Shown here in pieces: positions 71-15,445 of a stretch of 64,000 nucleotides of DNA (the stretch's first letter is position 1; every line of letters begins with the position of its first letter). The notes beneath the pieces were generated by a model. That model was not told where the DNA came from. It searched no databases and saw nothing but the letters and a program-made list of their open reading frames with translations. A program made the translations under genes and the position numbers. Location: NCBI RefSeq assembly GCF_001921205.1, contig NZ_MSIE01000047.1, positions 1-64,000 on the forward strand, given 5' to 3'. This stretch comes from Actinophytocola xanthii (lineage in GTDB: Bacteria > Actinomycetota > Actinomycetes > Mycobacteriales > Pseudonocardiaceae).

Positions 71-237
71 GAACACTGGCGCCGGGGCGTCCGAGCCAAC
101 GCCCCGGCCGACGAGGACACCCTCGCCACCCTGGTGCTGCACATGAACCGAGAGATCATCACCACGGCGCCCAGATCGAACTGCTCCGCGACCTGTACCG
201 AACCGGCCGTCGCGCCCACGCTGCGGCAACCCCGTGA
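71..237 (+). pseudogene. decayed coding fragment, family unknown
   Basis: No intact gene is seen in the first 265 bases. One plus-strand frame from about 71 reads EHWRRGVRANAPADEDTL and continues to about 165. A neighbouring frame then gives QIELLRDLYRTGRR and stops at TGA 235-237. The two pieces have normal amino-acid composition and join naturally, which suggests one broken reading frame whose start is lost. I do not recognise the family. This could also be chance open frame in high-GC DNA. Confidence 0.3.
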
Positions 238-265
238 CACGCCGCGACCCGTCCTGCGATGACCG

Positions 266-1393
266 CTACCGACTGCGCCGCTGACGAAGAGGCGCGTCGA
301 CGGAGGGCCGAAGCCGCCGCGTGAGCCGGTAAAGTCCGCGCGGGGGAGGTTTCTCGTCCGCGGCAGGCGTGTAGTGGAGGGCCTCGATGTGCTCCCAGTG
401 CAGGAGCGACATCAGTTGGGCGTTGGTCTCCCGCTCCTCGTGCGTGTCCCGAGGCCGGCGAAGGCCGAGCCGTTCGTATAGCGTGAAGCGATCGACGTCG
501 ATGACCGTCGCGACGGCGGTGCCGTACTCGTCCGCCGCGGCGATCGCGGCGCGATAGGCCAGATAGGCGAGACCGTAGGGCACCAGGGCGATCAGCAACC
601 ACCAGCCGTCGGTCGCCAGCGCGGCGACCGTGAGCACGGTTGCCAGGAGCGAGACGAAACAGAGCCGGACGGTCGTGTCCAGGAGTTGCCGGGTGTCCCG
701 GACGTACGCCACGTGCGCTTCCGGCACGACCAGGAGGAAGTGTGGGGCAGTGGTCATCGCGTCCAGCCCGTACTGGCTGCCGGCCCGGTCCTCGTAGCGC
801 CGCAGTGTGTTGCCCAGTCGGGTCGGCAGGATGCGGCGGCCGTCCGGGAAGCGTTCCGCCCGATGTCGCAACGCGTCTCTGGCGATCACGAGCGGGATGA
901 CGTGGTTCGCGTCGCGCTCGTCGAGAAATCGGTCGCGCTTCTCCTCCAGAACGTCGTCGTCCAGGTCATCGGAATACGTCCGGTGGCCCGTGAAGCTCTC
1001 CTCGATGGTCTTGTCCAATGCGTCGAGGCGGTCCCTGATGCGTTGCGCCCGGCCGCGGTGGCGCGCGACGCCCAGCCGCATGGCACCGAGCGCGACGGCA
1101 GAGGTGCCCCAGTAACCCTCTAGCAGTTGCACAGTCGCGAACTGCAGGGGATGCAGGAACAGTGCGAGGACGAACGTGCTCAGCAGCAGCCAGGCGGCCT
1201 GCGGGATCGACCAGTCAGCGAGCCGGACGCCGAGTGCCGCCAGGTTCGGCTCCGCTCGCCAGGCGTCGCTCTTGACCAGCAGATAGGTCCAGAGCACCAG
1301 GAAGAGCGTCGGGACCATCGTGACGATGCTGAAGTACCTGCCTACCCGGCCGCCTGCGGTCAGTGCGGCGTCCGCCATCGATGGCGCTGCCAT
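266..1393 (-). CDS. multi-pass membrane protein of unknown function
   Basis: This 375-residue protein has hydrophobic segments near residues 21-40 and 63-91 and a hydrophobic pair near 240-287. They flank a large charged, Arg/Asp-rich soluble region (about 100-230) and a charged C-terminal tail. That pattern fits a membrane anchor with a cytoplasmic middle domain. No catalytic motif or family is recognised. The ATG at 1393-1391 abuts the stop codon of the upstream zinc-ribbon gene with no spacing, so the two are very probably co-transcribed and translationally coupled. It lies outside the repeats that bound the neighbouring island. Possible roles include an accessory effector or sensor, but the sequence alone does not decide. 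Confidence 0.6.
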   Translation of the reverse strand: MAAPSMADAALTAGGRVGRYFSIVTMVPTLFLVLWTYLLVKSDAWRAEPNLAALGVRLADWSIPQAAWLLLSTFVLALFLHPLQFATVQLLEGYWGTSAVALGAMRLGVARHRGRAQRIRDRLDALDKTIEESFTGHRTYSDDLDDDVLEEKRDRFLDERDANHVIPLVIARDALRHRAERFPDGRRILPTRLGNTLRRYEDRAGSQYGLDAMTTAPHFLLVVPEAHVAYVRDTRQLLDTTVRLCFVSLLATVLTVAALATDGWWLLIALVPYGLAYLAYRAAIAAADEYGTAVATVIDVDRFTLYERLGLRRPRDTHEERETNAQLMSLLHWEHIEALHYTPAADEKPPPRGLYRLTRRLRPSVDAPLRQRRSR

Positions 1394-1636
1394 TCACCGG
1401 TTCTTCTTCGGGGTTCGCGGTGGTAGCCGGTCGACGAGGAGGTCACAGGAACTGCAGTGGTACTGACCGTTGGCGAGCTTCCGGAGCCGGCCGTCGCAGT
1501 TCCTCGTCGTGCACGGCGCGGACTGCCGATTCGGCCTGCGGCCGGGCATGCGGGGACTGCCTCCGGTGTAGCTGAGTCGTGGTACCAAGGTCACGGCGAG
1601 CAGCGCCAGCACTGGACCGGCCGAGCGAGAGCGCAC
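1394..1636 (-). CDS. small zinc-ribbon protein
   Basis: This is an 80-residue protein. I chose the GTG at 1636 because a GGAGGT ribosome binding site (complement of 1644-1649) lies 7 bases upstream. The same frame stays open much further upstream, but that part reads like out-of-frame sequence. The N-terminus has a short hydrophobic stretch (about residues 5-20). The C-terminal half carries a CX4C pair and then a CX2C pair in HCSSCDLL, a typical zinc ribbon, followed by a basic tail. Its TGA touches the ATG of the downstream membrane protein. A small zinc-binding partner of that protein is the simplest reading. Function is unknown. Confidence 0.5.
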   Translation of the reverse strand: MRSRSAGPVLALLAVTLVPRLSYTGGSPRMPGRRPNRQSAPCTTRNCDGRLRKLANGQYHCSSCDLLVDRLPPRTPKKNR

Positions 1637-1696
1637 CCCAGTCACCTCCCACTTCGGTGAACTCCAACATGGTAGGACTGTCGATCGTTCACGTCG

Positions 1697-1957
1697 ATGG
1701 GATGGCTGATGGGGCGGCTGGTGAGATGGGTGGTTGCGTGGCTCCGGTCGTGGGGCAGGCGTGCGTCGGCGGCCTTGCTGTGGCGGCCGTGGCTGTCGCC
1801 CGTGGCCGGGGTAGTCCTGCTCGCTGTGGCCGGTCAGCTCGGGGTGGGGTGGCTCATCGGTGCCTGTGTTGCCGTCGGTCTTGTCGGTGGCGGTGCGTTG
1901 GTCGGGCTGGCCGGGCTGGGCAGGTCGGCGCGAGATGTCAGTCCGAGTGGTCGGTGA
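1697..1957 (+). CDS. small hydrophobic protein, two predicted membrane helices
   Basis: The 86 codons begin with Trp/Arg-rich sequence (MGWLMGRLVRWVVAWLRSWG) and are followed by two hydrophobic stretches near residues 33-48 and 50-70. The composition is typical of small two-helix membrane proteins on actinobacterial mobile DNA. It is divergent from the zinc-ribbon gene. No convincing ribosome binding site precedes the ATG, so the start and even the reality of the gene are uncertain. Confidence 0.35.
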   Translation: MGWLMGRLVRWVVAWLRSWGRRASAALLWRPWLSPVAGVVLLAVAGQLGVGWLIGACVAVGLVGGGALVGLAGLGRSARDVSPSGR

Positions 1958-2575
1958 GGGTGTTTTCTGTCCAGATAGCGTGTGTGTGGTTGCCTCACAC
2001 GCCCGCTTCTGGCTGCCCACCAGACTTGACTGACAGTGACCACGCCGCCGCGGCAGCGGCTGTTCGAGCAGCCCACACAGCTGCGTCACGAGCAGCATGG
2101 ACAGCTGGATCATCGGCAGACTAGGTCGAGGCCTATTGTCCGAGGACGGGGCCACATCGCTGGCCAGCGTGGGTGTACAGCGCAAGCCGACGCAGAAAGG
2201 GGTGTTGCTAGGGACTTAAAACCCCCACGTGTCCGAGGAGGATTCTGCACACTATTCACCCCTCGTGTGCTCAATCTGTGAGTTCAGTACCGAACGACAG
2301 ATCGCGGAGTGGGAGAGCCCGGCCCGCCAGCAGCTGGGCATCGTTGGCTGCTCCACCAAATGACAATCACCAGGTTCGATTCCACCGAAGTCAGGAGGTT
2401 AATCCCGCGGCGCGACGCCAGACGAGCATGCGCACGCGACGAAGCTCCATAACTTCGCCCCGGAGCCGAGAACGGCGCAGACCTCAACATCCGGTCCTGG
2501 TCCTGGGGCGCTTTGTGCGCATCGTCTGTCGATGGCAAGATTCCCGTCGTTGTGTGGCCGGTGAGGGGAGCAGCG
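1958..2575. other. gene-poor stretch at the left edge of the island
   Basis: About 620 bases lie between the small membrane ORF and the first island gene. The stretch holds the left direct repeat (2210-2261). A short plus-strand frame after it (about 2284-2373) reads STERQIAEWESPARQQLGIV and stops at TGA, which may be a gene remnant. The promoter of the island operon should lie in the last 150 bases, but I cannot pick -35/-10 boxes with confidence. Confidence 0.4.
2210..2261. repeat. left direct repeat, tRNA-3'-end-like (putative attL scar)
   Basis: Positions 2221-2261 match 13686-13726 without gaps at 36 of 41 positions, with perfect blocks of 19 bases (2221-2239) and 16 bases (2246-2261). 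With a one-base indel the match extends left to 2210. Read on the minus strand it contains a degraded T-arm (GGGGGTTTTAAGTCCC against GGGGGTTCAAGTCCC in the right copy and in the tRNA-Leu at 13873-13956). Direct orientation and tRNA homology suggest an integration scar. Confidence 0.65.
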
Positions 2576-5500
2576 GTGTCAAAGGGCGAGATGGATCGAC
2601 TGGTCGGCGAATTGTTCTGTGGGCCAGCGGCTCCCTATGGTAGATACGCGGTGCCCGGTGGTGCCGCGGTCGACGGCGTAGAACTGATTCGCGACACCCT
2701 GTTCCGGTACGACCTGATGGACTCGACGACCAAGCCGGTCACGCTGCAGACATACTGGGACGTCTCGGAACTGGGTGGTCGGCTGTGGGACCAGGAGGTG
2801 CGTATCCTTCTTCGCGCCGCCTCGACCCGGCACCCAGCGTTGCCGGCGGTCGTCAAAGGCGGGTTCGTGGAGGGCGTGGGTGGCCGTCCCGGATTCGCGT
2901 TCGTCCTCACCGAGGGCTTCAACGAGCGCCTCGTGGACGCTTCGAACGTCATTCCGTTCATGCACGAGCATCCCGCCGAAGCGGTTCACCAACTATCACT
3001 CCTCGCCGACGCGCTGAGCGTTCTGCACGGCATGGGGGTCGTGCACCGAAATCTCTGGCCGGGCACCATCGATGTCGACACGTCACAGGCGGGTGAGCTG
3101 CCACGGCTGCGCCTTTCCCGGTTCGAGATGAGCCGGCTGGTGTCCGATCTGCTGCGCTCACCCACCATCGACGCCGACCGTGGAGCACAGGCGCGCCAAC
3201 TGTTTCTTGACCAGGGTGCGCGGGCGGCCCGGTACGTGCCACCGGAGCGGCTGGCCTTCCTTTACCCCGACGAGGAAGGAGCGCCCATCGAAGACGAACG
3301 ATCCGATGTATTCAGTCTGGGCATGCTTGTGTCCGAGTGGTTTCTCGGATCACTGCCCGAGCTGCCGGACGACGTCGACCGGCCGAACGAACGGCGAGCC
3401 TGGTTGACACAGATGCAGGAGGAACGTCGACAGCGGATCCGAATCGACACGACCCTGCCGTCTCACCTGACCGAGCTGCTGCATGAGATGACGGAGCCCG
3501 CGTGCCGCCACCGTCCGCGCGCCGCGGAGGTCGTGTCCCGGATCAGCAAGCACTACGAGGCGATGACCGAGCTGTGGTCCACGAGCGTCGAACTTCCCTA
3601 CCTGGTAGCTTTCCAGCCCTCGGAGTTTCTCGACACGGCACTGCGATGGGGATGGATCAGTGCGGATCCGACGACCTCTGAGGGGCGCGAGCAGCTGGCC
3701 GACTTCATCGAGCGGGATCTGCGGCGCGCGAAGTTGGTCCACTCCGAGGACGGGGCCGAGAGCGCCATCCGCTACAGCGGGGACAGCAAGTCGAAAAGCG
3801 AGGCACGGCAGGTGCTGCTCGGTGAGCGAGTCCTATGGTACTGCCGCCCGTGGCGGGAGCAGTCCGCCTACGGCGGACAAGGCGCGGCAGTGGACGAGGT
3901 CCTCCTGATCAGGTATGTCGTCGGCCTCGAGTCCGAGCGAGGACGGACCTCGATGAGGGCGTTGCGCCGCGGGGGCCGCGAACGGCCGGTGCCCGCCGTC
4001 GAGGCGGTGCCGACCGACATGGCCCGCGCGGAGTTCACGGCACGGCGGAAGGGCAGGCCAGCCTGGTCGTCGTTGATCCAGGCGGTCGGGTCCAGCACGG
4101 TCGTGAGCGGCGAGGTGCGGCATCAGGAGCAGGCCTTCGACTGGCTGGTCGAGTTTCAGTGGGTCGAGCTGCGGGCGCGGCAGTACGCCTACGAACTCCT
4201 CGACGTCGACGGTGAGCGCGCCGTGGTGCGGTTCGATCAGGACCGCGACTCCGCACGCGGCTACCGGTCCGCGTTGGCGACGCTGTACGCCGAGAGCGAG
4301 TCGCGCCGACCGCTGTTCGCGGACTTCTTCGCGGGACTCACCGAAGACGACGAGGACGAACAGGGCATCGATGTACGCGGTGACGACAACGGTGAGCCCA
4401 GCCGTCCGGAGGGGTTGCGTGCGTACTACCACGACCGGAAGAGCGGCGACGCGATCACGGTGCGGGTGCCGGGCGGCGCCAACCGGCTGCCCGCTCAGGG
4501 GTGGCTCTGCCCGGCTTCGGACCGGGGCAGCCAGCGGGTGCTGATGCGACAGGAGGCCGCCCGCCAGGAGCTCCTGGACAACCGGGTGCTGGCGAGCCAG
4601 CTGCGCAAGCCGCTGACCATCGAAGGGCGACGCGAGCCGTGGGCGAAGGCGCCAGGGGACCTCATGGGGGACGGGCGTGCGGCTGTCGTTGACATGCTGG
4701 CGATACAGCCGTTCTTCGCTCTGCAGGGCCCACCGGGAACCGGCAAGACGACCGTCGCCGCACACGCGATCGCGGCCTACCTTCGGCGCGAGACCGGCCG
4801 AGTGCTCGTGTCGGCACAGTCCAACTTCGCGCTCGACAACCTCGCTCGGTCAGTACTCCGGGAGACCAACGCCGTGGACGGGAACGGCCGGCCTCGCGAC
4901 AACTCCGAGGTCATCGCGCTGCGTGTGTCATCGGCCGCCGGGGCCGACCGGGTGGACACCGCGCTGCGCCCGTTCGGGCTCGTCGAGCTCACCGGGCGAC
5001 GAGCCGACGCTTTGCGACGGCATGCCGACGCCGAACTGGTCGGCCGGCGCGACCCGAGGGCACGGGAGGTTCTCGGCCACTGGCGGCGGGTCGTCGACTC
5101 GTGCGAACCCGAACTCGCCGACCGGCTGCGGCGCGGCGCCAACGTCGTGTTCGCCACCTGTGCGGCCGCCACCCCCGAGGCGGTGGCCCGTGCCGGTTCG
5201 TCGGCCACCTACGACTGGGTCGTCATCGAGGAGGCGGCCAAAGCCTGGCCCACCGAACTGGCCATCCCACTGGTCCGCGGCCTGCGGTGGACCCTGATCG
5301 GCGACCACCACCAGCTTCCCGCACACCGCAGGCGCGAGGTGGAGGACTTCCTCACCGAGAGCGCACGGCACGATAACACCGAACTCGCACTGGACGACCA
5401 GGTGCTCGACTCGTACAAGAAGTTCTTCGACCTGTTCGGTGCGTTGTTCGACGACACCGTGGATCACAACGACACCAGCGCGCACCGGGCGACTCGGACG

Positions 5501-6169
5501 TTGAGCACGCAGTTCCGGATGCGGGAACCGATCTGCGAGGTCGTCAGCCGGGTCTTCTACCCGGCTGACGAGAACGAGGACCAGCCGCTCGGGCCTGGTC
5601 TGCTCACCACCGGGCGGGCGGAGACACCAGCGTGGCCGACCGCGCCGGACTGGTTGCACGACCACGCGCTTGTCTGGCTGGACACCAGTGAGCTGCAGAA
5701 GGAGGGCGACGAGCCGTACTGGCAGAACCAGACCGAGGCGGAGCTCGTGAAGTCGCTGGTGTCGAAGCTGCGCCCGAGACCGTCATCGCTGCCCAGCGCG
5801 AGCGATCGGCAGCCGCTCGCCGTGCTGACGCCCTACCGGCAGCAGGCCAGACTGCTGACGGAGGACCGGGACGTGGAGCCGTACGTGTCGACATTGCACG
5901 CGTTCCAGGGCCGACAGGCCGATGTCGTGATCGTGTCGATGGTCCGTGACACCGTCCGGGGCGACGCGGACAAGCCGTGGCTCAGCATCGGCCACCTCAC
6001 CCAGGCGCAGCTGGTCAATGTGATGCTCTCCCGGGCGAGGGACCTCCTGGTGATCGTCGGTGACCTGCCGCACCTGGTGAACAGCGGGTCGCCGACCTGG
6101 CGGCGGCTCGGTCTCGCTTTCGAGGAGTTCGGCGTCGTGATCCCAGCGAGCCGGATGAGCGCCGGATGA
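2576..6169 (+). CDS. pseudokinase-SF1 helicase fusion (Mokosh MkoA-like)
   Basis: This 1197-residue protein starts at GTG 2576, preceded by GAGGGGAG at optimal distance. Residues about 40-330 form a protein-kinase-like fold: alphaC Glu74, the catalytic-loop region VVHRNLWPG (H157-N159), a YVPPER APE-like motif near 220, and DVFSLG from D244. The catalytic Asp of HRD is Asn, DFG is RFE (182-184), and the beta3 Lys is not evident, so it looks like a pseudokinase. Residues about 700-1190 are a UPF1/COG1112-type helicase: Walker A GPPGTGKT (718-725), VIEEAAKA (from 883), GDHHQLP, a TLHAFQGRQADVVIV motif V and VNVMLSRARD motif VI, all intact. The middle 330-690 is unassigned. The stop overlaps the PLD gene start (ATGA). 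Kinase-helicase plus PLD is the layout of type I Mokosh anti-phage systems; defence is inferred from that. Confidence 0.8.
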   Translation: MSKGEMDRLVGELFCGPAAPYGRYAVPGGAAVDGVELIRDTLFRYDLMDSTTKPVTLQTYWDVSELGGRLWDQEVRILLRAASTRHPALPAVVKGGFVEGVGGRPGFAFVLTEGFNERLVDASNVIPFMHEHPAEAVHQLSLLADALSVLHGMGVVHRNLWPGTIDVDTSQAGELPRLRLSRFEMSRLVSDLLRSPTIDADRGAQARQLFLDQGARAARYVPPERLAFLYPDEEGAPIEDERSDVFSLGMLVSEWFLGSLPELPDDVDRPNERRAWLTQMQEERRQRIRIDTTLPSHLTELLHEMTEPACRHRPRAAEVVSRISKHYEAMTELWSTSVELPYLVAFQPSEFLDTALRWGWISADPTTSEGREQLADFIERDLRRAKLVHSEDGAESAIRYSGDSKSKSEARQVLLGERVLWYCRPWREQSAYGGQGAAVDEVLLIRYVVGLESERGRTSMRALRRGGRERPVPAVEAVPTDMARAEFTARRKGRPAWSSLIQAVGSSTVVSGEVRHQEQAFDWLVEFQWVELRARQYAYELLDVDGERAVVRFDQDRDSARGYRSALATLYAESESRRPLFADFFAGLTEDDEDEQGIDVRGDDNGEPSRPEGLRAYYHDRKSGDAITVRVPGGANRLPAQGWLCPASDRGSQRVLMRQEAARQELLDNRVLASQLRKPLTIEGRREPWAKAPGDLMGDGRAAVVDMLAIQPFFALQGPPGTGKTTVAAHAIAAYLRRETGRVLVSAQSNFALDNLARSVLRETNAVDGNGRPRDNSEVIALRVSSAAGADRVDTALRPFGLVELTGRRADALRRHADAELVGRRDPRAREVLGHWRRVVDSCEPELADRLRRGANVVFATCAAATPEAVARAGSSATYDWVVIEEAAKAWPTELAIPLVRGLRWTLIGDHHQLPAHRRREVEDFLTESARHDNTELALDDQVLDSYKKFFDLFGALFDDTVDHNDTSAHRATRTLSTQFRMREPICEVVSRVFYPADENEDQPLGPGLLTTGRAETPAWPTAPDWLHDHALVWLDTSELQKEGDEPYWQNQTEAELVKSLVSKLRPRPSSLPSASDRQPLAVLTPYRQQARLLTEDRDVEPYVSTLHAFQGRQADVVIVSMVRDTVRGDADKPWLSIGHLTQAQLVNVMLSRARDLLVIVGDLPHLVNSGSPTWRRLGLAFEEFGVVIPASRMSAG

Positions 6170-9100
6170 GCGAGCCCACGACGGTCTACGTGCCCTGCGA
6201 CGTCATTCCCGTCCGAGCCGAGTTCTCATACGGATCTGGGCTCTCGCCGATGGAGGAGTCGACCCTGCGCGCGGTGGTCGCGGGGTTCGACGCCGTGGCC
6301 GAGCTGAGCTCCCTGCTCGGCCTCGGTGAACGACTGACCCTCGACCTCATTTCCGACCTGTGGCACCGCGGATATCTGCTGCTGGACTTCTCCCGCGGCA
6401 CCCTGCAGCCGAGCGCGCAGGTGCGACAGGCCGTGCTGGCCGACGACCTGTCCGAGCTCCACGGTGCCGAGCGCGTCGACGAGCAGCGGATGATCATGGT
6501 CGAAAAGCTCACCGGCCATGTGCTGTCCGTTCGCCGTGGTCGCAAACACGTGCGCGACAACAGGTTCGTCGTTCCGATCGACGTAAACGGCGGCTGGGCG
6601 GAACAGGTCACCGGCGCCCAGCTCGCCGCCGTGCTCGACGAGGAGGAGTCGCAAACCACGACGGACCTGTCCGCGCCACCGACTCGTCAGCGGCAGGTGG
6701 TGTCGGTGCACCGCCTCCCGGTCGGGGTCCAGACGGCCATTGAGCAACGCTGGCTGCCGGTGGAGATCCGCGTCGGGGTCGACCCTGACACGGAGGGAAT
6801 CCTAGTGTCCGTGAGCGGCACCACCCTCCCTGCGGACCGACGCACCGAGGCGGGCCGGCGCATTACCCGGCTGCTGGAGGAGTACTCGGACTCTACGTTC
6901 GCGCGGTACCTGCGAGGGCGGGCAACCAGGCGGTACGAGGATCCGCGGTCGCTTGAGGTGCAGCTCGAGCGCCTGGAGAAGCGCGCGGCCAGGGCCGTGA
7001 CCGCACCCGCCGGCACGCGCACCGCCTACCACCGGGAGCTGTCGAGCGAAGCACGGCAGGTGTACGGACTCCTCCAGCAACGGGTCCGCTCGGAGGTCGA
7101 CGCTCGTCTGGTCGGTGGGCGTGACGAGCAGCTGGCGGCGGTACTCGCGCTCATCGAGAGCGCCCGCCAGCAAATCGTCCTGGTCAGTCCGCAGATCCAG
7201 CGCGACGGCCTGTTGCCGCTGATCGAACCGCTGCGCGCGGCACTGAAGGACGGCCGGCAGGTAGCCATTGTGTGGGGCTCCCGCCGCGACGACCAGCTCG
7301 ACAGCTGGGTACGGACGGCGTTGATGGACCTGCGGGGCGCCGCCGGACGCGACGCCACGAACCTGCGCATGGTGTGGACACCCCGGCCGGCACGGATGAA
7401 CGCCCGCCTGGCCATCGCGGACGATCGTCGAGCGATCATCACCGGCGCGCCGCTACTCGACCCGCAGCGGGACCGGCGCCAGTTGGGTGTCGAGCTCACC
7501 GCACCCGACGGCGGTATGGCGTGCGAACCGATCGAGTCACTGCTGCGCTGGGTCGCCCGCGCCATGCCCGAGTATCGCCTCGGCCAGGCGCTGTACGTGC
7601 GCCACAGCGAGTTCACACAGCAGGCCGACGACAGCGGCGCGGCCGAGCTTGTCTCGTTCCCCGACCCACCCCTCGACCGGCAGGGCGACGAGGTGGCCGA
7701 CAGTGCCGTCCTGGCGTGGGGGGAGGCGTGGGTCGGTGTCGCGGCGTCGTTCCGCGAACGCCTGGCAGCCCGGCACCGTGTCTGGGCCGAGATCCTGGAA
7801 GACGGCGCCCATCGGGAGGCGCTGTCGCGGCTGCTGCGCGAGCCCCGGCAGCGGATCACCGTCAGCTCGGTCCGGGTCAGCGCACAGGTGATCACGCCGC
7901 GGTTCGTCGCGACGCTGCGCAACCAGGCCGAGGCCGGCGCCCGGATCAGCCTGACGCACCGGCGCTCCGCCGAGAACGATCCGGCCGGGCCACTGCACGA
8001 GTTGAGCCGGGCTTTCCCCAACCGCGTGCGGATCGAGCGGATCTCGACGTCGGCCCCCGTCATGGCTGGCGACGACGAGACCGTGGTCACCAGCTTCGAC
8101 CTGCTGTCGCTGGGCGCGAGCTCCACCGTTCGGTCGCGGTACCCATTCGGCTCGGAGCTCGGCGTCCGGATCGTCGGGGCCGAACTCGCCGCCCTCGTTC
8201 ATCAGATCATCGCGAACAGCGCGGGCACGCCGGCCGACGACGGGCCGGGGGAGGGCGACCCGGCCGAAACCGGTCCGTCGCGCCACGTTCCGGCATCCGG
8301 CGCCCAACGGCTGCTCAACGACTTCGCCGCGGCGGACGGCCCGGACCAGGCGCGGCGGGTCAGGGACGCGGTGGCCGGGTCTGCCGATCCGATCGCACTC
8401 CTCGACGAGCTCGAGCACGTCCGGCCGGGCCGGACGGTGCTCCGACTCGCCGCGGCGGCCCTGGTCTGCCGGCACGATCTGCGGGAGCTGGCGGCGACGC
8501 AGCGATGGCTCCAGTGGCTGGTGTTGGACCAGTGGCGAGCCGGACTGTTCCCGGCCGCAGCGGTGCTGCGCCAGGTGCTGCCGGACACGGGGTGGTCGCC
8601 GCGGCCCGTCCTGGCGACGATGGCTGCGGCGCACCGCACCCGGTGGAGCCCGCACGCCGTGTACGCGGCGGTCGTCGATGGTCTGCAGGACAAGGAGAAG
8701 TCGGCCATCGTGGCCGTTGGGGTGACAGATCTGCTGCTCGGGACCGACGACATGGACCAGTTGGCGGTCGGCAAGCTCAACGACGCGCTCGAACTGCTCG
8801 AGGGGGTGCAGTCGCCGTGGGACGGTTTGGCGGCGGCCGCGTCGCGGTACTGGGACACCTACCACAAGCCGGTCCCGTTGCGCCACATCCTCGAGGCCGA
8901 CGACAATTCACGGCTCGACGACGAGCTCGCCGCAGCCTGGCAGCAGCTCACGACGGCACTGCTGCACGCGGCACGCACGACGTTCGACTTCGACAACGGC
9001 CAGAAGATCCACGGCCGCCTCTTCCATCCGGACGGAGTCTTCGGCGGGATGGGCGCCATCGCCGAGGCGCACGACGGTGCCGCGCTGCGCTCGTGGCTCG

Positions 9101-9438
9101 ATGTGCACGGCGGACGGGGCGCGAGCGGGCTGATCGACCAGGCGACCCGTGAGGCGCTGCCTCGCGGCGGCAGCCTGCACAGTCGGCGGCGGCGCAGCTA
9201 CGAACAGCGGCTGGCCGCCGTCCTGACGGCCGCTCGGCTCGTTCGGGAGCTGAGCGCGGCGCAGACCAACGCACCCGACTCGAACTGGGTCGACGACGCG
9301 CGGCCGGTCGCGCGGGAGCTGGCCGGCCTGTGGCCATCGCTCGTGTCGGCGACTGACGAGACCGAGGAACCGGAGCGGTACCTGATCCGGAGCGCGCTGA
9401 AGACATTGGAGCCCGTGGCCCGTTGGGGGGAGCCGTGA
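6166..9438 (+). CDS. PLD-fold protein with degenerate HKD motifs (Mokosh MkoB-like)
   Basis: This 1090-residue protein starts at an ATG that overlaps the previous stop by 4 bases. Residues about 300-470 and 560-680 resemble the two halves of a phospholipase D nuclease fold. Where HxKx4D is expected, the first half reads N412-A-R414 with D419, in a typical context (LAIADDRRAIITGAPLLD). The second half reads S629-A-P631 with D636 (VMAGDDETVVTSFD). Neither half keeps the catalytic His or Lys, so nuclease activity by the usual mechanism is doubtful. The N-terminal 280 residues and C-terminal 400 residues are unassigned; the C-terminal part is helical and Ala-rich. In Mokosh-type systems the PLD protein partners the helicase. 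Here it may bind nucleic acid rather than cut it. The stop overlaps the next GTG by 4 bases. Confidence 0.75.
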   Translation: MSEPTTVYVPCDVIPVRAEFSYGSGLSPMEESTLRAVVAGFDAVAELSSLLGLGERLTLDLISDLWHRGYLLLDFSRGTLQPSAQVRQAVLADDLSELHGAERVDEQRMIMVEKLTGHVLSVRRGRKHVRDNRFVVPIDVNGGWAEQVTGAQLAAVLDEEESQTTTDLSAPPTRQRQVVSVHRLPVGVQTAIEQRWLPVEIRVGVDPDTEGILVSVSGTTLPADRRTEAGRRITRLLEEYSDSTFARYLRGRATRRYEDPRSLEVQLERLEKRAARAVTAPAGTRTAYHRELSSEARQVYGLLQQRVRSEVDARLVGGRDEQLAAVLALIESARQQIVLVSPQIQRDGLLPLIEPLRAALKDGRQVAIVWGSRRDDQLDSWVRTALMDLRGAAGRDATNLRMVWTPRPARMNARLAIADDRRAIITGAPLLDPQRDRRQLGVELTAPDGGMACEPIESLLRWVARAMPEYRLGQALYVRHSEFTQQADDSGAAELVSFPDPPLDRQGDEVADSAVLAWGEAWVGVAASFRERLAARHRVWAEILEDGAHREALSRLLREPRQRITVSSVRVSAQVITPRFVATLRNQAEAGARISLTHRRSAENDPAGPLHELSRAFPNRVRIERISTSAPVMAGDDETVVTSFDLLSLGASSTVRSRYPFGSELGVRIVGAELAALVHQIIANSAGTPADDGPGEGDPAETGPSRHVPASGAQRLLNDFAAADGPDQARRVRDAVAGSADPIALLDELEHVRPGRTVLRLAAAALVCRHDLRELAATQRWLQWLVLDQWRAGLFPAAAVLRQVLPDTGWSPRPVLATMAAAHRTRWSPHAVYAAVVDGLQDKEKSAIVAVGVTDLLLGTDDMDQLAVGKLNDALELLEGVQSPWDGLAAAASRYWDTYHKPVPLRHILEADDNSRLDDELAAAWQQLTTALLHAARTTFDFDNGQKIHGRLFHPDGVFGGMGAIAEAHDGAALRSWLDVHGGRGASGLIDQATREALPRGGSLHSRRRRSYEQRLAAVLTAARLVRELSAAQTNAPDSNWVDDARPVARELAGLWPSLVSATDETEEPERYLIRSALKTLEPVARWGEP

Positions 9439-12002
9439 CCGACTTCATCCACGAGATCTTCGCGGAATGGCGAGATCGTTGGAGGTACCCGTCCGCAGTC
9501 GCTCTGCTGGCGGATCCGTCGCGCACGCCGTCGAACGCCGAGCTGGCGGATGCCGTCGCCATCGATCTCGGCGCGCCACCCGCCACCAGGAACGACTCCG
9601 TGCGGGTGTTGATCGATGCCGGTGAGTTCGGGGCAGTGTCCGCTATCGTGCCGGCCGGGGAACTGACTGACGAGCTGCGCGCCCGGCTCGACGAGGCTCG
9701 CACCACGGCGCTTCGCGAGCTGGACCGCCGCCACGACGAGTTGCTGGCGCGCGGCAGGCGAGCGAGACACGCGAGGCTCGTGGAACGGTCGAGGCTGACG
9801 CTCGAGGCCGAACTCCATCCCGCTCGCGTTGCCAGGGAGCTCGACGAGTGGGAGGAGGGGATCGAGCAGGCGGAGCAAGAGCTCGCCGAGGAGCTCGAGC
9901 GCCAGCTCGTCGAGCGGGGCGCGAAGACACACCCCGCCTGGGCCGAAGCCGTTCGAGCGTGCCTGGCCGTGCGTGAGTTCCCGACGGCCGCCGGAATGAT
10001 CGACGTTGGACCGGACGCAGAGGCGTTCGGCGGGCCCATTGGGGTGCCACCTGGACAGGAACGCTGGCCGTGGCGAGGACGTACCGTGGCCGAGGTGCTC
10101 GCCTGGTACACGGACGGCGCCGCCGAGCCGCCGCCCGAGTTCATCGACCGTTGGCGACCGGCGGGCTCCGACACCGCGGGCTGGCAGCTGCTCCACGCCC
10201 TTGGCGCGCTGCTGGCCGGCCCGATGGACGCGGCCGTGGTCCAGTCGTTCGCGGAGGCGTTGGACACCGTGCTCGGCGTCGAAGGCACCCGGCACGCGGT
10301 CGCCGCCGATGGTGACGGGTTCCGCACCGTCCTGTACGGCGTTCACGACCGCCGGCTCGTCCGGCTCGGGGTCCCGGACTCGCTCGCGGTATGGACGAGC
10401 GCCAACGGCGGCTCACCGGGCGCGCGTGAGGCGGCGACCGCATGGCTCGACCTGACCTCGTTCCACGTCACCGCCCCGCCGCCGTCGGGAGTTGCCCGGC
10501 TGACCGCCGACGTCCTGTTCCGGCTGCTCGCGCCGACACCAGGCGGCCAGCCGATGTCTGTCGCGAGCCGGCGGATCAACCTGTTGCGCGCGGTATACCC
10601 GCAGCTGCCGATGCGGTATGTCTTTCCGGAGCACGGTGGTCGCCTGAACGAGGGCAGCAACCACGAGCTCCGCGACGACGTGGCGTGGCTGCTCGATTTG
10701 TTGGGTGTGCAGGCACGCATGGGCGTAGTGGACGCGATCTGCTACGACACCGCGGGCTACCCACCCGCCGTCAGCGCGGCGTTCGACGGTCTCCTGCCCC
10801 ATGCCGTCGCTCGCCCCACCGAGCTGACCGTCGACGATCTCGCCGCATGGCGTCATGACCCCACGGTCCAAGCCGCCTTCCGCGAACGCGTACACGACGC
10901 GCTGCGGGAAGACCCCGAGATCACGGTGGTCACACTCGTCGCCGTGTGGATCTATGAAGACAACTCCGACACCTGGTTCGGGAAGGCCGAAATCGATGAA
11001 TGGCTGGTCGACTTCTTCGACGATGACCAGGTAGAACCGGCACGCTCGGTTCTGTCGGATGTCGGGGTGCTGCTGGAACGTGCCGTCTCGGCCGGCCTCC
11101 TCCGGCGGAACCAGGACCGGTACTCGTTTCGCACCCCGGGGTTGGTTAGTGTTCTGAATGACGATGTCCACGGCCGAGTCGTGGAGGCACTCGACCGCGT
11201 CCGGCAACGGCATCGCCTGGTCATGACGCAGGTCGATCTGCGGCTGCGCGACGACATGTTGACCTCGACTCTGCATTCGATCAAGAACGAGCTCTTCGCA
11301 CTGAGGTCTCGGCTGGGATCGCTCGCGGCCATGGCGACCAGGCCGGCGTCCGAGGAAGACGCGAGAGGGCTGCTTGCGAACATCGCCGCCCAGTTGACGG
11401 ACGCCGGCACGGGCGTCGCCGTGCTCGAACAACGCTGCCAGAGCCTGTTGCGCAAGATGACGAGCGCGATACTCGACCCGGAGTCGTTCGACGTCAACGA
11501 GCTGGCGAGAGAGCTCAAGCGGTACTTCGAGTGGCAGAACCCGGGAGAGATCGCGGTGCGTGTGGACGCATCCGGCGAGCCGCTGGTCCTGTTTGCCAGA
11601 AAGATCCTGGTCCGGCTGGCTCTCGAGAACCTCATGATGAACGCCCTCCAGGCGCAAGCTTCTGTCGATGCGCCCAAGCGAGCGATCGTGTTGCACCTGC
11701 ATCGGTCTGAAGGGGAGCTGCCGGGAACGGCGATCGCTTACGTCGTCATCGACATCGAGGACGCCGGACCGGGTCTGCCCCCGCGCGTCGCCAAGAGCTT
11801 CTCCGCCGGTGAGCTCGTACCCGCCCGGGAAGGCGAGGTGAGCCGGGGGATCGACTTCACGCGCGGACATGTGACCAGCAGCGGCGGGACGTTCGACTAC
11901 CTCGGTCGCTCCGAGGAACTGGGCGGTGCGCACTTCCGGATCCGACTGCCACTGCACACGCCTTCGGATCCGCCGCAGGAGCCGGTGCGGCCCGAGGACT
12001 GA
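9435..12002 (+). CDS. soluble GHKL sensor histidine kinase, large N-terminal sensor region
   Basis: The chosen start is GTG 9435 (855 residues). It overlaps the PLD stop as GTGA and is preceded by GGGGGGAG; a TTG at 9423 in the same frame is less likely. Residues about 80-160 are a charged coiled coil. Residues 160-590 are of unknown fold, with no membrane segments. At 611-625 an H-box-like LHSIKNELFALR gives H614 as likely phospho-acceptor. The C-terminal ATPase domain has the N box (E731, N732, N736), the G1 box DAGPG (D776, G778, G780) and a G2 region with GIDFTRGHVTSSGG. Ser follows the His, where Glu or Asp is usual. Coupling to the helicase-PLD pair suggests that it senses the state of that complex or a cytoplasmic trigger. 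Its probable partner is the convergent response regulator, 3 bases away. Confidence 0.75.
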   Translation: MTDFIHEIFAEWRDRWRYPSAVALLADPSRTPSNAELADAVAIDLGAPPATRNDSVRVLIDAGEFGAVSAIVPAGELTDELRARLDEARTTALRELDRRHDELLARGRRARHARLVERSRLTLEAELHPARVARELDEWEEGIEQAEQELAEELERQLVERGAKTHPAWAEAVRACLAVREFPTAAGMIDVGPDAEAFGGPIGVPPGQERWPWRGRTVAEVLAWYTDGAAEPPPEFIDRWRPAGSDTAGWQLLHALGALLAGPMDAAVVQSFAEALDTVLGVEGTRHAVAADGDGFRTVLYGVHDRRLVRLGVPDSLAVWTSANGGSPGAREAATAWLDLTSFHVTAPPPSGVARLTADVLFRLLAPTPGGQPMSVASRRINLLRAVYPQLPMRYVFPEHGGRLNEGSNHELRDDVAWLLDLLGVQARMGVVDAICYDTAGYPPAVSAAFDGLLPHAVARPTELTVDDLAAWRHDPTVQAAFRERVHDALREDPEITVVTLVAVWIYEDNSDTWFGKAEIDEWLVDFFDDDQVEPARSVLSDVGVLLERAVSAGLLRRNQDRYSFRTPGLVSVLNDDVHGRVVEALDRVRQRHRLVMTQVDLRLRDDMLTSTLHSIKNELFALRSRLGSLAAMATRPASEEDARGLLANIAAQLTDAGTGVAVLEQRCQSLLRKMTSAILDPESFDVNELARELKRYFEWQNPGEIAVRVDASGEPLVLFARKILVRLALENLMMNALQAQASVDAPKRAIVLHLHRSEGELPGTAIAYVVIDIEDAGPGLPPRVAKSFSAGELVPAREGEVSRGIDFTRGHVTSSGGTFDYLGRSEELGGAHFRIRLPLHTPSDPPQEPVRPED

Positions 12003-12005
12003 TGA

Positions 12006-12974
12006 TCAGTCGCGGGGACGCCCCTCACGGATTGCTCGCTCCACCGAGTCCGGCAGCGTCGGCAACGAGTTGTCCGGGCCTTTGAGGAAAACGCCGGACA
12101 GCTTGTACTGCCGCCTCGTCGCCTCGGTGTCCCCAGGCAACGGAGCTCCCGAGATCAACAGCGTCGGGATGGGAGTGTTATCGCGCAGGTACTCGAGCAC
12201 CACGATGCCTTCCATGTCCGTGCTGCTCGACGTGAGATGAAGATCGACGAGTGCGACATCGAAGTCCAAGGGCTCGTCGACGACGAACTTGTGCCAGTCC
12301 GCGAGCGACCGCAGGATGACATAGTCGTAGCGTGGGGCGAGCATGCTCGCGAAGTCATCACCGATCTGGTCCTCGACGATCAACACCCGCTTTCGCCCCG
12401 GCGTCCGCCCCGACTCGCTCGCGGCGAACCACAGCCCCGCCGGGATCTCGGTGGAGGGAAAGTGGTTCAAGAAGGTCGCCAGCGCGGACAGTGAGCGCAG
12501 GTCAGGCGGTGACAGGTGGGCTAATTTCTTCAGCAGTTCGGCCCGGGCCTGATAGACCCGATACCAGTACTTCCTGGTAACGGGGTAATGCTGGCGAGGG
12601 TCACCGTCCCACAATTCCAGGAGTTCGTTCATTTTCGCCGGATCCGCGGTGTTCGGCAACGCCTTCACGCCGGCCACGAACACATCAGCGTCCACCGACC
12701 CGTCGTCGAGTTCGATGCGGTAGTACCGATTCCGCTGCGCCGGCAGCGGCACGTAGTCACGAAGCCGGCTCATCGCCTTGTGCACGGCGATGTCGGTCGG
12801 CCGCTGACCGTCGGGCCAGACCTCCGCCAGCCTGTAGACGGGCAACCTGCGGTCCGGTGCGAGCGACAGCGCGATCAGGAGATTCGCCAACAGGTCGGGG
12901 AGGGCATCGCCGTTGACCAGCACTTCGCCGAGAAGACGAACAGTGACCTCAGAGTCAGCCATGAAATTCGGCAC
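12006..12974 (-). CDS. response regulator, N-terminal winged-helix (SARP-like) and C-terminal receiver
   Basis: This 322-residue protein has an N-terminal region (about 8-100) resembling the OmpR/SARP winged helix (VRLLGEVLVNG, AVHKAMSRLRDYV). A helical linker follows (about 105-190). The receiver domain (about 196-310) has acidic pair E201/D202, phospho-acceptor D244 in VALVDLHL, LLISGAP for the Ser/Thr, and Lys in FLKG. Receiver-last is the reverse of the usual OmpR order. The start may be GTG 12974 or ATG 12962; neither has a strong ribosome binding site. It converges on the histidine kinase gene with a 3-base gap, so it has its own promoter at the right side of the island. It probably regulates the island operon or a host target in response to the kinase. 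Confidence 0.75.
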   Translation of the reverse strand: MPNFMADSEVTVRLLGEVLVNGDALPDLLANLLIALSLAPDRRLPVYRLAEVWPDGQRPTDIAVHKAMSRLRDYVPLPAQRNRYYRIELDDGSVDADVFVAGVKALPNTADPAKMNELLELWDGDPRQHYPVTRKYWYRVYQARAELLKKLAHLSPPDLRSLSALATFLNHFPSTEIPAGLWFAASESGRTPGRKRVLIVEDQIGDDFASMLAPRYDYVILRSLADWHKFVVDEPLDFDVALVDLHLTSSSTDMEGIVVLEYLRDNTPIPTLLISGAPLPGDTEATRRQYKLSGVFLKGPDNSLPTLPDSVERAIREGRPRD

Positions 12975-13133
12975 GGAAGCACGGTACTAGCCCGAACGCG
13001 AGAGTATGACAGGAACCGTTGACATTCGCCTGACCAATTCCTGCCCGGACGCCCCCCGCCGCTCGACCGTGACACCGAGATGTCAGCGCGCAGTGTATAT
13101 GGCCGGTCATTCAGAACCGGTTCACTGAGTGTC

Positions 13134-13376
13134 ATGAGCTGGTTCCTCTCTTCTCACCCCCGCCGACGGTGCCCCAGCAGCTGCGAACACCGGCCCGCCG
13201 AGACGCAGCAGCCGGCCGAACCACCGGCAACGGTAGGACTCGACCTACGCACGCTGGTGCTGCTCCTCCTCGCCGGCGGCGCCGTCTGGCTGGCGGTCGC
13301 GCACCCCGCACTCGCGGTCGCGATGCTGTTCGGCCTGACCGTCCTGTGGTCACTGGACCGCCTTGTCCGCAGCTGA
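13134..13376 (+). CDS. small membrane protein
   Basis: This is an 80-residue ORF from ATG 13134; an in-frame ATG at 13080 is possible but lies closer to the divergent regulator promoter. It has a Cys/Arg/Pro-rich N-terminus (to about residue 32) and then one or two hydrophobic helices (LRTLVLLLLAGGAVWLAVA, then ALAVAMLFGLTVLWSL), ending in basic residues. It resembles small actinobacterial membrane proteins of unknown role. It is divergent from the response regulator and lies inside the right repeat, so it may belong to the island. Confidence 0.45.
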   Translation: MSWFLSSHPRRRCPSSCEHRPAETQQPAEPPATVGLDLRTLVLLLLAGGAVWLAVAHPALAVAMLFGLTVLWSLDRLVRS

Positions 13377-13872
13377 CCCCCGACGCACCGCCGTCGACCG
13401 AACACACGGACGCCGAGCACCGGTGTTGTCAAAGGGGATCGCGCTTAAGGACGTCCGCGTATCCACTGCGGGTACCTAGCCGACTCGGATCTGGTGGCGG
13501 AAGACGCAGGCGAGAGCATCTGGATGCGACTTGTGGAGGCCGAAGCAAAGCTCCGCCATCACCGGCGATGGATCGGAGCACATCCCGCAAACCGACAGCC
13601 ACTACCTTGCGCAACACAGCCGGTACGGTCAGTAACTCCCTGAATACTCCATATATGTGAGATCGGGGGTGTCCCAGGGACTTGAACCCCCACGTGTCCG
13701 AGGACGGAGTTGCACACTATTCACCCGCCGGGTCTTCGGCGGATGAGTTCCATCCGGCCGTACTCGGCGAGGCACGCCGACACGGGCCTTCCAGCGCACA
13801 TGCGCTAAGATGTCGATCGATGAGCGCCTGAACCCCGACGGGAACGTGAAGATCGTTCATGGGGTAGTGATG
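13377..13872. other. gene-poor stretch at the right edge of the island
   Basis: About 500 bases contain the right direct repeat (13676-13726). A short plus-strand frame (about 13490-13638) reads LVAEDAGESIWMRLVEAEAK and may be a remnant. Another plus-strand frame from ATG 13810 runs into the tRNA gene. No intact gene is convincing, and no integrase remnant could be identified. Confidence 0.4.
13676..13726. repeat. right direct repeat, tRNA-3'-end-like (putative attR scar)
   Basis: This is the partner of 2210-2261, 11.465 kb away in the same orientation. It shares two exact blocks with the tRNA-Leu gene: 18 bases of T-arm (13677-13694 equals 13883-13900) and 10 bases of acceptor 3' end (13694-13703 equals 13872-13881). 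The order of the two blocks is reversed relative to the tRNA. On the minus strand, a copy of the tRNA 3' end is followed directly by a second T-arm. This permutation is what serial integration at a tRNA 3' end would leave. Confidence 0.65.
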
Positions 13873-13956
13873 TGTCCGAGGGGGGACTTGAACCCCCACG
13901 CCCTTGTCGGGCACTAGCACCTCAAGCTAGCGCGTCTGCCATTCCGCCACTCGGAC
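13873..13956 (-). tRNA. tRNA-Leu (anticodon GAG)
   Basis: This 84-base class II tRNA has acceptor stem GTCCGAG (13956-13950) pairing perfectly with CTCGGAC (13880-13874) and discriminator A at 13873. The anticodon stem CTAGC/GCTAG encloses loop TTGAGGT, giving anticodon GAG for CUC codons. A variable arm (CCGACAAGGG region) and a perfect T-arm GGGGG-TTCAAGT-CCCCC are present. The CCA is not fully encoded (CA follows the discriminator). It is intact and is the likely integration target of the neighbouring island. Confidence 0.95.
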
Positions 13957-14029
13957 CAGGTGATGGGGGATAGCGTAGCTGATCCGTTTCGGGCGGCCCA
14001 ACCGGGCCTACTGGTGGTAGGAAGGCCCC

Positions 14030-15364
14030 GTGACCGAGCAGACGAACGCCACCACCACCTCCCTTCTCGAGGACGAGGCCGTGCAGCTCACCAGTGAGCT
14101 GATCAGGATCGACACCACCAACACGGGCGAACCGGACACCACGGTCGGGGAGCGGGAGGCGGCTGAGTTCGTTGCCGGCAAGTTGCGGGAGGTGGGGTAC
14201 GAGCCCACCTACGTCGAGTCGGGGGCGGCTGGGCGGGGGAACGTGTTCGTGCGGTTGGCGGGGGCTGACCGGGGGCGGGGGGCGTTGCTGGTGCACGGGC
14301 ACCTGGACGTGGTGCCCGCCGACGCCACCGAATGGTCTGTGCACCCGTTCTCGGGAGCTGTGCAGGACGGGTACATCTGGGGCCGCGGCGCCGTCGACAT
14401 GAAGGACATGGTGGGGATGACCCTCGCCGTGGCTCGGCGGTTCAAGCGGGACGGGGTCGTGCCTCCCCGCGACATCGTGTTCGCCTTTCTCGCCGACGAG
14501 GAGGCGGGGGGAGCTCTGGGGGCGCAGTGGTTGGTGAACCACCGGCCCGACCTCTTTGACGGGGTCACCGAGGCCGTGGGGGAGGTGGGGGGCTTCTCCG
14601 TCACCCTCGCCGAGGGGGTGCGGGCCTACACGATCGAGGTCGCCGAGAAGGGGATCGCGTGGATGCGGTTGCGCGTCCGCGGCCGGGCGGGCCACGGGTC
14701 GATGATCCACGAGGACAACGCGGTGACCAAGCTCGCCGAGGCCGTCACCCGGCTGGGCAACCACCAGTTCCCGCTGGTCGTCACCGACTCGGTGCGGGCC
14801 TTCCTGGATTCGGTCACCGAGCTCACGGGGCTCGAGTTCGGCGAGGAGGACCTGCCGGGAGCCGTCGGCAAGTTGGGGCCTCTCGCCCGGGTGGTCGGCG
14901 CCACCCTCCGCGACACGGCCAACCCCACCATGCTTCGCGCCGGCTACAAGGCGAACGTCATCCCCTCGGTGGCCGAGGCCGTCGTCGACTGTCGGGTGCT
15001 GCCGGGGCGGGAGGAGGCCTTCGAGCGGGAGCTGGACGAGATCCTCGGGCCCGACGTCGAGCGCGAGTGGATCAGCCACCTTCCCGCGGTCGAGACCTCC
15101 TTCGACGGGGACCTGGTGGAGGCCATGACCGCGGCCGTGCAGGCGGAGGATCCCGGGGCTCGAACGATCCCCTACATGCTCTCGGGGGGCACCGACGCGA
15201 AGGCGATCCACACCCTGGGGATCCGGTGCTTCGGGTTCGCTCCGCTCCGGCTTCCCGCCGACCTGGACTTCACCGCGCTGTTCCACGGGGTCGACGAGCG
15301 GGTGCCGGTCGACGCCGTTCGGTTCGGGGCCCGGGTGCTCGACCGCTTTCTGCGGAGCTGCTGA
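14030..15364 (+). CDS. M20 family metallopeptidase
   Basis: This 444-residue protein is of the usual length for ArgE/DapE/CPG2-type M20 peptidases. The metal-binding and catalytic landmarks are in order: LVHGHLDVVPA (first His and Asp), GRGAVDMKDM (bridging Asp), and FLADEEAGG (catalytic Glu followed by metal Glu). A C-terminal GGTDAKAIHTLGIRCFGF precedes FHGVDERVPV, which holds the last His. A lid domain lies between about 185 and 300. It probably acts in the cytoplasm on dipeptides or acylated amino acids; the substrate cannot be read from sequence. GTG start at 14030. A paralogue with the same motifs is at 31938-33254. It begins 73 bases from the divergent tRNA-Leu and is followed by a hairpin terminator. 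Confidence 0.9.
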   Translation: MTEQTNATTTSLLEDEAVQLTSELIRIDTTNTGEPDTTVGEREAAEFVAGKLREVGYEPTYVESGAAGRGNVFVRLAGADRGRGALLVHGHLDVVPADATEWSVHPFSGAVQDGYIWGRGAVDMKDMVGMTLAVARRFKRDGVVPPRDIVFAFLADEEAGGALGAQWLVNHRPDLFDGVTEAVGEVGGFSVTLAEGVRAYTIEVAEKGIAWMRLRVRGRAGHGSMIHEDNAVTKLAEAVTRLGNHQFPLVVTDSVRAFLDSVTELTGLEFGEEDLPGAVGKLGPLARVVGATLRDTANPTMLRAGYKANVIPSVAEAVVDCRVLPGREEAFERELDEILGPDVEREWISHLPAVETSFDGDLVEAMTAAVQAEDPGARTIPYMLSGGTDAKAIHTLGIRCFGFAPLRLPADLDFTALFHGVDERVPVDAVRFGARVLDRFLRSC

Positions 15365-15395
15365 ACCGTTCGGGGCCCCCGGGCGTAAGACACCC

Positions 15396-15419
15396 GTGCC
15401 GGACCAGAATGTCCGGCAC
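15396..15419 (+). terminator. intrinsic hairpin after the M20 peptidase gene
   Basis: GTGCCGGAC and GTCCGGCAC form a perfect 9-bp stem around a 6-base loop, 32 bases after the stop codon. There is no U-tract, which is common for actinobacterial terminators. It separates this gene from the DUF2231 gene at 15446. Confidence 0.6.
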
Positions 15420-15445
15420 ACCCGAACCTGATCCCGGAGGCATCA

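Follow-up and report, generated by a model that had tools for sequence, protein, structure and literature searches.

The window considered here is a 64,000-nucleotide stretch of Actinophytocola xanthii DNA, namely bases 1–64,000 of a 101,502-base contig in a genome of 8.34 Mb. Near its left end lies a four-gene locus (2576–12974) that encodes a homologue of MkoA, a homologue of MkoB, a cytosolic histidine kinase (HK) and a response regulator (RR) whose gene is convergent with that of the HK. MkoA and MkoB are said to make up the anti-phage system Mokosh type I, reportedly described by Millman and colleagues in 2022. The four genes, and the parts of their products on which the argument depends, are as follows.

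2576–6169, plus strand: MkoA homologue with a pseudokinase domain and a superfamily 1 (SF1) helicase (PADLOC MkoA PDLC03920, 799.8 bits, E = 1.4e-240; Pfam AAA_12, AAA_11 and Pkinase)
2978–3538, plus strand: kinase-like part of MkoA, predicted to be inactive (Pfam Pkinase, E = 3e-8; HRN for HRD and RFE for DFG in the motif alignment)
4679–6064, plus strand: SF1 helicase part of MkoA (Pfam), with the Walker A sequence GPPGTGKT and EEAAK kept
6166–9438, plus strand: MkoB homologue, long form of 1090 amino acids with a PLD fold and both HKD motifs degenerate (PADLOC MkoB PDLC03922, 375.8 bits)
9435–12002, plus strand: third protein, a conserved N-terminal region of about 570 residues followed by a histidine kinase core of DHp and CA domains (HATPase_c, fold and profile matches)
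11274–11276, plus strand: codon of the predicted phospho-acceptor His618, numbered from TTG 9423 (position in the DHp helix, column conservation)
12006–12974, minus strand: RR with an N-terminal SARP-like winged helix and BTAD and a C-terminal receiver (profile, AlphaFold-type model and Foldseek matches), convergent with the HK gene
12243–12245, minus strand: codon of the predicted phospho-acceptor Asp244 (invariant in the RR alignment)

A sequence-only reading of the window had described a kinase-like domain fused to an SF1 helicase, a PLD-fold protein overlapping it by 4 bases in the manner of Mokosh type I, a soluble HK coupled through a second 4-base overlap and an RR converging on it, and this layout was borne out. 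The MkoA and MkoB genes share ATGA at 6166–6169, the third gene overlaps that of MkoB through GTGA when started at GTG 9435 (its longest open reading frame, ORF, is 9423–12002, from TTG 9423), the stop codons of RR and HK are separated by 3 bases, and the HK has no membrane stretch (Kyte–Doolittle maximum of 1.37 over 19 residues). The longest MkoA frame is 2513–6169 (TTG 2513, 1218 amino acids); the likely start is GTG 2576, which is preceded by AGGGGAG, Shine–Dalgarno-like by eye, and gives 1197 amino acids. The PADLOC scores uphold the kinship of the pair with Mokosh type I, the MkoA match covering residues 62–1190 of the 1218-residue frame. Two parts of the description needed correction: the fusion of a kinase-like domain to a helicase stands on the Pfam matches (Pkinase, AAA_11/12) with the HRD and DFG residues absent, and the PLD-fold assignment stands on homology to MkoB, although the window copy keeps neither HKD motif (NxR near 7396–7425, SxP near 8047–8076). 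A Pfam search of the MkoB and RR proteins of the window returned no family at E = 1. Judged by the loss of the HKD motifs, the system is best regarded as a Mokosh derivative rather than canonical Mokosh.

A survey of gene neighbourhoods found the four-gene set at 26 further distinct loci, making it a clade-wide arrangement and not a one-off: with the window there are 27 distinct full sets, and the RR is convergent with the HK in all 27. Their hosts include Streptomyces, Amycolatopsis, Actinomadura, Nonomuraea, Nocardiopsis and Klenkia. When 298 genomes of the order were searched with the HK, four matches were found at E = 1e-10 (the window genome, G047, G113 and G236), all of them within the four-gene set, and among 396 genomes drawn from the phylum the window genome alone was matched. 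MkoA scored at least 600 bits in 8 of the 298 genomes (28 at E = 1e-40): four of the eight carry HK and RR, one (G142) has a third gene that is ATPase-only and no RR, and three (G088, G123 and G195) have MkoA and MkoB as a two-gene system. The 20 lower-scoring genomes are represented by 11 inspected loci (L042–L052, of which L045 is a second match in G236), and these hold the helicase only, with no MkoB, HK or RR. MkoB was detected in 12 of 394 genomes drawn from the class, comprising one full set (the window), three ATPase-only loci (G142, G816 and G877), seven two-gene loci (G088, G123, G195, G485, G726, G950 and G992) and one weak match (G973) with nothing of the set around it.

A wider sample was obtained by running an MkoA alignment against 84,980 species genomes, a scan biased towards the query, and taking the best 80 of 95 loci. 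These comprise 25 full sets (two being duplicates of G113 and G236), 19 ATPase-only loci, seven with another third gene, seven that have no third gene or are truncated at a contig end, and 22 proteobacterial loci without a third gene (L118 being cut after MkoA); duplicates (L069, L107, L096 and L147) were removed before counting. The HK family is absent from the 22 proteobacterial loci, seven actinobacterial loci with a short MkoB and four loci of Myxococcota or Planctomycetota, and in those 33 loci no member of the RR family was found beyond one weak 24-bit match in L115, far from the genes. Scanning the species genomes with the single HK protein gave no match, whereas the MkoA alignment gave loci. 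Viral contigs searched with the MkoA alignment and plasmids searched for HK and MkoB held no relatives, and plasmid and phage searches with MkoA returned partial helicase matches only.

The identity of the third protein as a histidine kinase is supported at several levels. It contains HATPase_c (Pfam, E = 3e-7), its AlphaFold2 model (pLDDT 86.9) matches solved HK proteins in Foldseek (best E = 7e-9), the 50 matches listed for that model, given without aligned ranges, are all histidine kinases or related two-component proteins, and its profile aligns with that of ZraS (3.5e-23, columns 597–819). No Pfam family reaches its cutoff in the N-terminal region. His618 falls within a predicted helix (582–638) that corresponds to the DHp, and the N- and G-box residues N740, D780, G782, G784 and G809 are invariant across 39 aligned sequences, namely the window and 38 of 42 HK stretches (L066, with a frame broken in the HK, was left out, as were L086, L090 and L105). 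The acceptor histidine occupies its column in 24 of the 27 loci with an RR and is displaced by one column in L055 and L068; among the 26 distinct loci that have a third gene and no RR it is in its column in none, the nearest case being a histidine two columns away in L087. The ATPase domain is retained in the same frame in 18 of those 26, and in a second frame in L108.

It is the N-terminal region of the third protein that is kept, while the C-terminal part varies between HK, an ATPase without the histidine, a P-loop NTPase-like end, or none. Both L081 and L097, which are nested in clades of full sets, have a third protein without the kinase part and also have no RR. In four loci (L006, L076, L081 and L088) MkoB and the third protein are encoded in one open frame, which suggests contact between them. 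A quick MkoA tree (LG+G4, 61 rows, long branches; L062, L085, L094, L099, L105 and L108 additionally omitted for contig ends or broken frames) requires three changes for the full sets, places the 17 ATPase-only rows in one clade (support 100), and sets the rows without a third gene across a branch from the rest. The idea that the joint absence of histidine and RR reflects many independent events was considered and rejected: the ATPase-only rows are one clade, and an independent-pairs test finds one pair.

The RR is likewise assigned by structure and profile. Its model has a pLDDT of 91.0 and matches receivers in Foldseek (E = 1e-4); the N-terminal part matches EmbR (2.5e-10, columns 6–136) and AfsR (3e-9, columns 5–189), that is, an OmpR-like winged helix with BTAD, and the C-terminal part matches the receivers of MtrA and RegX3. 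All 26 aligned RRs have D202, D244 and K298, and the RR of L005 also has the D and K. The catalytic residues of HK and receiver fit a competent relay, in which phosphate would pass from one to the other.

Catalytic residues are missing from many proteins of the Mokosh pair. The HRD pattern is absent from all 22 proteobacterial MkoAs, and HRD and DFG are both absent in the 14 of those that were aligned; HRD is present in six of seven actinobacterial loci with a short MkoB (L039, L040, L041, L148, L149 and L150; not L151), with DFA where DFG is expected in L041. Given the proteobacterial proteins without HRD, the presence of HRD and DFG would seem to be no usable criterion for membership of Mokosh type I. 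The loss is common to proteobacterial MkoAs of two-gene systems that have no HK and so is not tied to the HK, and the idea of a kinase swap, with the HK replacing a dead MkoA kinase, was rejected on this ground. By pattern, all 21 MkoBs of proteobacterial two-gene systems have both HKD motifs (L127, L128, L130 and L131 among them look like copies); in the 27 full sets both are present in nine, one in two and none in 16, the window included. Relatives with intact PLD motifs may in addition cut nucleic acid directly.

In the window, the region divergent from the RR holds the following features.

13071–13088, minus strand: second operator-like site, putative, CGCTGACATCTCGGTGTC (sixth best in window 1–16000; the motif training included the window)
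13110–13127, minus strand: SARP-operator-like 11-bp direct repeat, putative, CAGTGAACCGGTTCTGAA (as high a score in a fraction 0.004 of 235 controls with the held-out motif)
13134–13376, plus strand: tentative fifth gene, small and membrane-like, 80 amino acids or 98 from 13080 (Kyte–Doolittle 2.08), divergent from the RR

A fifth gene stands beside 25 of the 27 full sets and is divergent from the RR in 24; none was found in L054 or L088. Twelve encode TIR-S1 proteins, 11 are small membrane-like ORFs, one is a kinase (L007; PADLOC PD-T4-6, 4e-26) and one a protein with TCAD9 and a death-like domain (L005). Eleven of the TIR-S1 genes are divergent from the RR, and the copy in L065 is divergent from MkoA; the CBASS TIR effector of PADLOC was matched in six of six scanned (5e-11 to 6e-4) and Pfam S1 in seven of seven. 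A profile made from 11 of these proteins and run over 73 loci recovered the twelfth (L066) and, outside the full sets, one weak match of 32.8 bits in L041, where it falls in the MkoB frame (6157–7938, minus strand) of a two-gene actinobacterial locus. The small membrane-like ORFs are all divergent from the RR, ten being assigned by rule and that of L059 through 58% identity to L058. Those of L058, L059, L061 and L104 share 48–60% identity, L055 and L068 share 75%, and L057 and L055 share 35%; those of the window, L056, L082 and L103 have no similarity link to these (L056, L059, L068 and L082 being searched only as targets). In L005 a TCAD9-bDLD3 protein faces an RR that itself carries bDLD3 (5889–7460, minus strand, and 7874–8998, plus strand), a death-like-domain coupling where the others have a SARP domain. 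Of the 16 full sets without PLD motifs, 15 have a fifth gene.

SARP sites are described as heptamer repeats that are classically 11 bp apart (PMC10972967). Of 27 RR-divergent regions, 7 contain exact 7-mers repeated at a spacing of 11 or 22, compared with 17 of 238 controls (Fisher p = 0.005), and against shuffled sequence 16 were observed where 1.9 were expected. A two-heptamer motif (about CGCTGA[AC]), scored with relatives held out, gave 14 of 26 loci a score within the top 5% of those of 235 controls, L005 being left out since its RR is without a DNA-binding domain; five other seed words did so for 4 to 16 of the 26. Against shuffles the motif reached 14–17 of 26 loci at spacing 11 and 0–8 at spacings 9, 10, 12 and 13; a motif learnt instead from the regions upstream of MkoA reached 1–5 of 26. 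When the repeat at 13110–13127 was scored, both the window and its sister had been left out of the motif training; the repeat is also the best site of window 1–16000 in a whole-locus ranking, such rankings not being held out, and another operator-like site lies near the RR start at 12943–12960. The top-ranked site in the L065 locus (by the same kind of ranking) lies between TIR-S1 and MkoA, and the RR-divergent region scores low, 0.97 of controls being as high.

Taken as a whole, these observations favour, with a probability of about 0.6, a derivative of Mokosh type I in which MkoA and MkoB serve chiefly as an intracellular sensor of foreign nucleic acid, a phosphorelay carries the signal and a swappable effector is induced. 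In the proposed sequence of events MkoA and MkoB would engage phage nucleic acid and, presumably as a complex, activate the HK by way of the third protein's N-terminal region, leading to autophosphorylation on His618, for which the catalytic residues are in place. Phosphate would then pass from His618 to Asp244 of the SARP-type RR, a step suggested by the catalytic residues and by the absence of the aligned histidine from loci without an RR. The RR would bind the adjacent 11-bp heptamer repeats and induce the divergent effector, tentatively the ORF at 13134 in the window, as position, motif and effector families suggest, and the effector would harm or arrest the infected cell. The HK and RR thus probably switch on interchangeable adjoining defence genes, and the whole may amount to an internal virus alarm that operates through classic two-component signalling. 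A stronger form of the proposal, that this is a distinct defence architecture in which a helicase and a catalytically dead PLD-fold protein act as sensor, and a cytoplasmic HK and a SARP-receiver regulator release interchangeable effectors across a divergent promoter, so that news of infection would travel through a two-component phosphorelay with exchangeable ends, is given slightly less than an even chance.

Several observations weigh against this interpretation. At the effector end, control gene starts also have small membrane-like ORFs next to them, in 26 of 174 free cases (14.9%) and in 48 of 509 overall, in a comparison that was made post hoc and with related rows, and the small ORF of the window has no convincing homologue in 13 other loci, a 26-residue match (E = 0.007) lying elsewhere in L082. 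A divergent effector and the operator motif are both missing from L054, the locus most closely related to that of the window (66% identity in MkoA). The exact repeats are less striking when compared with real DNA than with shuffles, 12 of 26 loci do not reach the top 5% with the motif, and four of 26 regions upstream of MkoA do reach it (L063, L065, L067 and L104). On the relay itself, single-sequence Pfam detects a receiver in only 4 of 26 RRs (BTAD in one, Trans_reg_C in one, nothing in that of the window), the full set L088 is without an aligned acceptor histidine, and bDLD3 in place of the DNA-binding domain in the L005 RR implies that the output there is not transcriptional. The joint absence of histidine and RR with the ATPase kept counts as one event on the tree, to which L081 and L097 add two. 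Lastly, no MkoB of the ATPase-only clade has an HKD motif although no RR is present, so that loss of the PLD motifs is not tied to the relay.

Of the other explanations, one holds that the relay acts at the protein level, a phosphorylated RR (or the HK) switching the MkoA–MkoB complex, with the SARP domain and the divergent gene being secondary. The four loci in which MkoB shares a frame with the third protein, and the bDLD3-bearing RR of L005, would suit it, as would the 9 of 27 sets with both PLD motifs intact, where the complex could still be the effector; it nevertheless appears unlikely, as the window and 15 other sets have lost both motifs, leaving little to switch but the helicase, and the RR-divergent region is marked by 11-bp repeats and effector-like genes. 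Autoregulation is common among two-component systems, and the pair could merely regulate expression of the locus (its own rr gene or the mko operon), with MkoA–MkoB a helicase-only effector. Operator-like sites near the RR start (12943–12960 and 13071–13088) and the four high-scoring regions upstream of MkoA fit such a role, but the lack of enrichment upstream of MkoA (1–5 of 26 loci) and the recurrence of a fifth gene in 25 of 27 loci, partly from known defence families, make it decidedly unlikely.

It is also conceivable that the locus is decaying, its pseudokinase and dead PLD marking a defence island that is losing function. Both catalytic sites are indeed lost in the window, yet all four frames are open, the motifs of helicase, HK and RR are intact, whole clades share these losses, and pseudokinases also occur in the proteobacterial two-gene systems; decay is accordingly considered very improbable. 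Scarcely any credence is left for HK and RR as an unrelated two-component system that shares the island by chance, a view already disfavoured by order and orientation conserved in 27 of 27 sets, by frames shared with MkoB, by an HK family found nowhere else at E = 1e-10 in 298 genomes and by the joint absence of kinase part and RR, even though ordinary two-component genes do occur near some loci (L081, 722–2885). The genes of L081 (722–1609 and 1860–2885) were also considered as displaced parts of the system and rejected, being by eye an ordinary LuxR-type pair.

The proposed sensor with a phosphorelay and an induced effector can be set beside several known systems. As in Mokosh type I, a protein with kinase-like and SF1 helicase parts is followed by a PLD-fold protein, the genes overlapping; unlike Mokosh type I, the window has an MkoB of about 1090 amino acids without HKD motifs, an HK as third protein, a convergent SARP-receiver RR and a divergent fifth gene. 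Mokosh is stated to degrade viral transcripts (PMC11291487). The vWA-MoxR ternary conflict systems (Kaur et al.; PMC7159879, PMC8195603) share with the present loci the swappable effectors, and bDLD3 and TCAD9 in L005; in the accessible text of these papers receiver domains are reported without histidine kinases, whereas a matched HK and RR are core here and MoxR and vWA are not among the core genes. A histidine kinase also appears in a defence context near BREX loci, where a Schlafen RNase carries a minimal histidine kinase and a winged helix-turn-helix as fused parts (PMC12839542), but that, as far as the excerpt goes, is one fusion protein beside BREX, with neither a helicase/PLD pair nor a separate receiver. 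Similarly, the SARP regulators AfsR and EmbR resemble the RR in their DNA-binding domain and BTAD and, putatively, in the 11-bp heptamer repeats, while in the present RR a C-terminal receiver follows the SARP part and an HK is the partner, AfsR being described with serine/threonine kinases (PMC10972967). Among the open-access papers listed, none was seen to link Mokosh with two-component systems, subscription papers and bioRxiv preprints lying largely outside that coverage.

Among the relatives, the ATPase-only sister clade (no RR, no HKD motif in MkoB) comprises L038, L075, L078, L079, L084–L087, L089–L091, L093, L095, L098, L100–L102, L105, L108 and L146, the acceptor histidine not being aligned in these (L146 stood outside that check). 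No conserved partner was found downstream of the loci without an RR. In three loci of Myxococcota or Planctomycetota (L072:7443–9545, L073:16707–19016 and L080:16863–19037) the third protein ends in a P-loop NTPase-like part, on weak Pfam matches below the cutoffs. In L092 a gene at 18617–19957 (minus strand), whose product has by eye a receiver-like start, LLLLVDDDRHAHESL, and no Pfam match at E = 1, converges on a third gene without the kinase part.

The four genes had been described in the sequence-only reading as bounded by direct repeats next to a tRNA, and the repeats were confirmed (48 of 53 aligned columns identical).

2210–2261, plus strand: left att-like direct repeat (aligned with 13676–13726)
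13676–13726, plus strand: right att-like direct repeat (18 nucleotides identical to part of tRNA-Leu(GAG))
13872–13956, minus strand: tRNA-Leu(GAG), insertion site of the island (ARAGORN; syntenic in five of five congeners)

The junction of this tRNA with an M20 peptidase gene is syntenic in all five congeners, and homology to them, going left, stops at the 3′ end of the tRNA (at 13809 in L165). MkoB was found in one of six genomes of the genus, that of the window. The right repeat recurs 15–16 kb from the same tRNA in two of the five congeners (34 nucleotides at 97% in L166; 39 at 92% in L169), and in both a serine recombinase-like gene, recognised by eye without a family search, adjoins the tRNA; no recombinase frame was seen by eye in the island of the window. 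The locus thus looks like cargo of a recurrent tRNA-Leu integration hotspot. Other islands lie at the same tRNA-Leu(GAG) in L165, L166 and L169, with recombinase-like genes by eye and, in L166 and L169, cargo of low G+C content at third codon positions. Left of the island, the minus-strand gene at 266–1393 encodes a protein for which tblastn gave no match in any of the five congener stretches compared.

No bacterial signalling route is better known than the two-component system, yet the papers on conflict systems, in the parts of them available, have receivers without HK (PMC8195603, PMC7159879). If the present interpretation is correct, a helicase-based defence would link the sensing of infection to regulated gene expression instead of to direct nuclease attack, which would help to explain the persistence of systems whose catalytic domains are dead. 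A promoter that fires on infection would also provide an easy readout.

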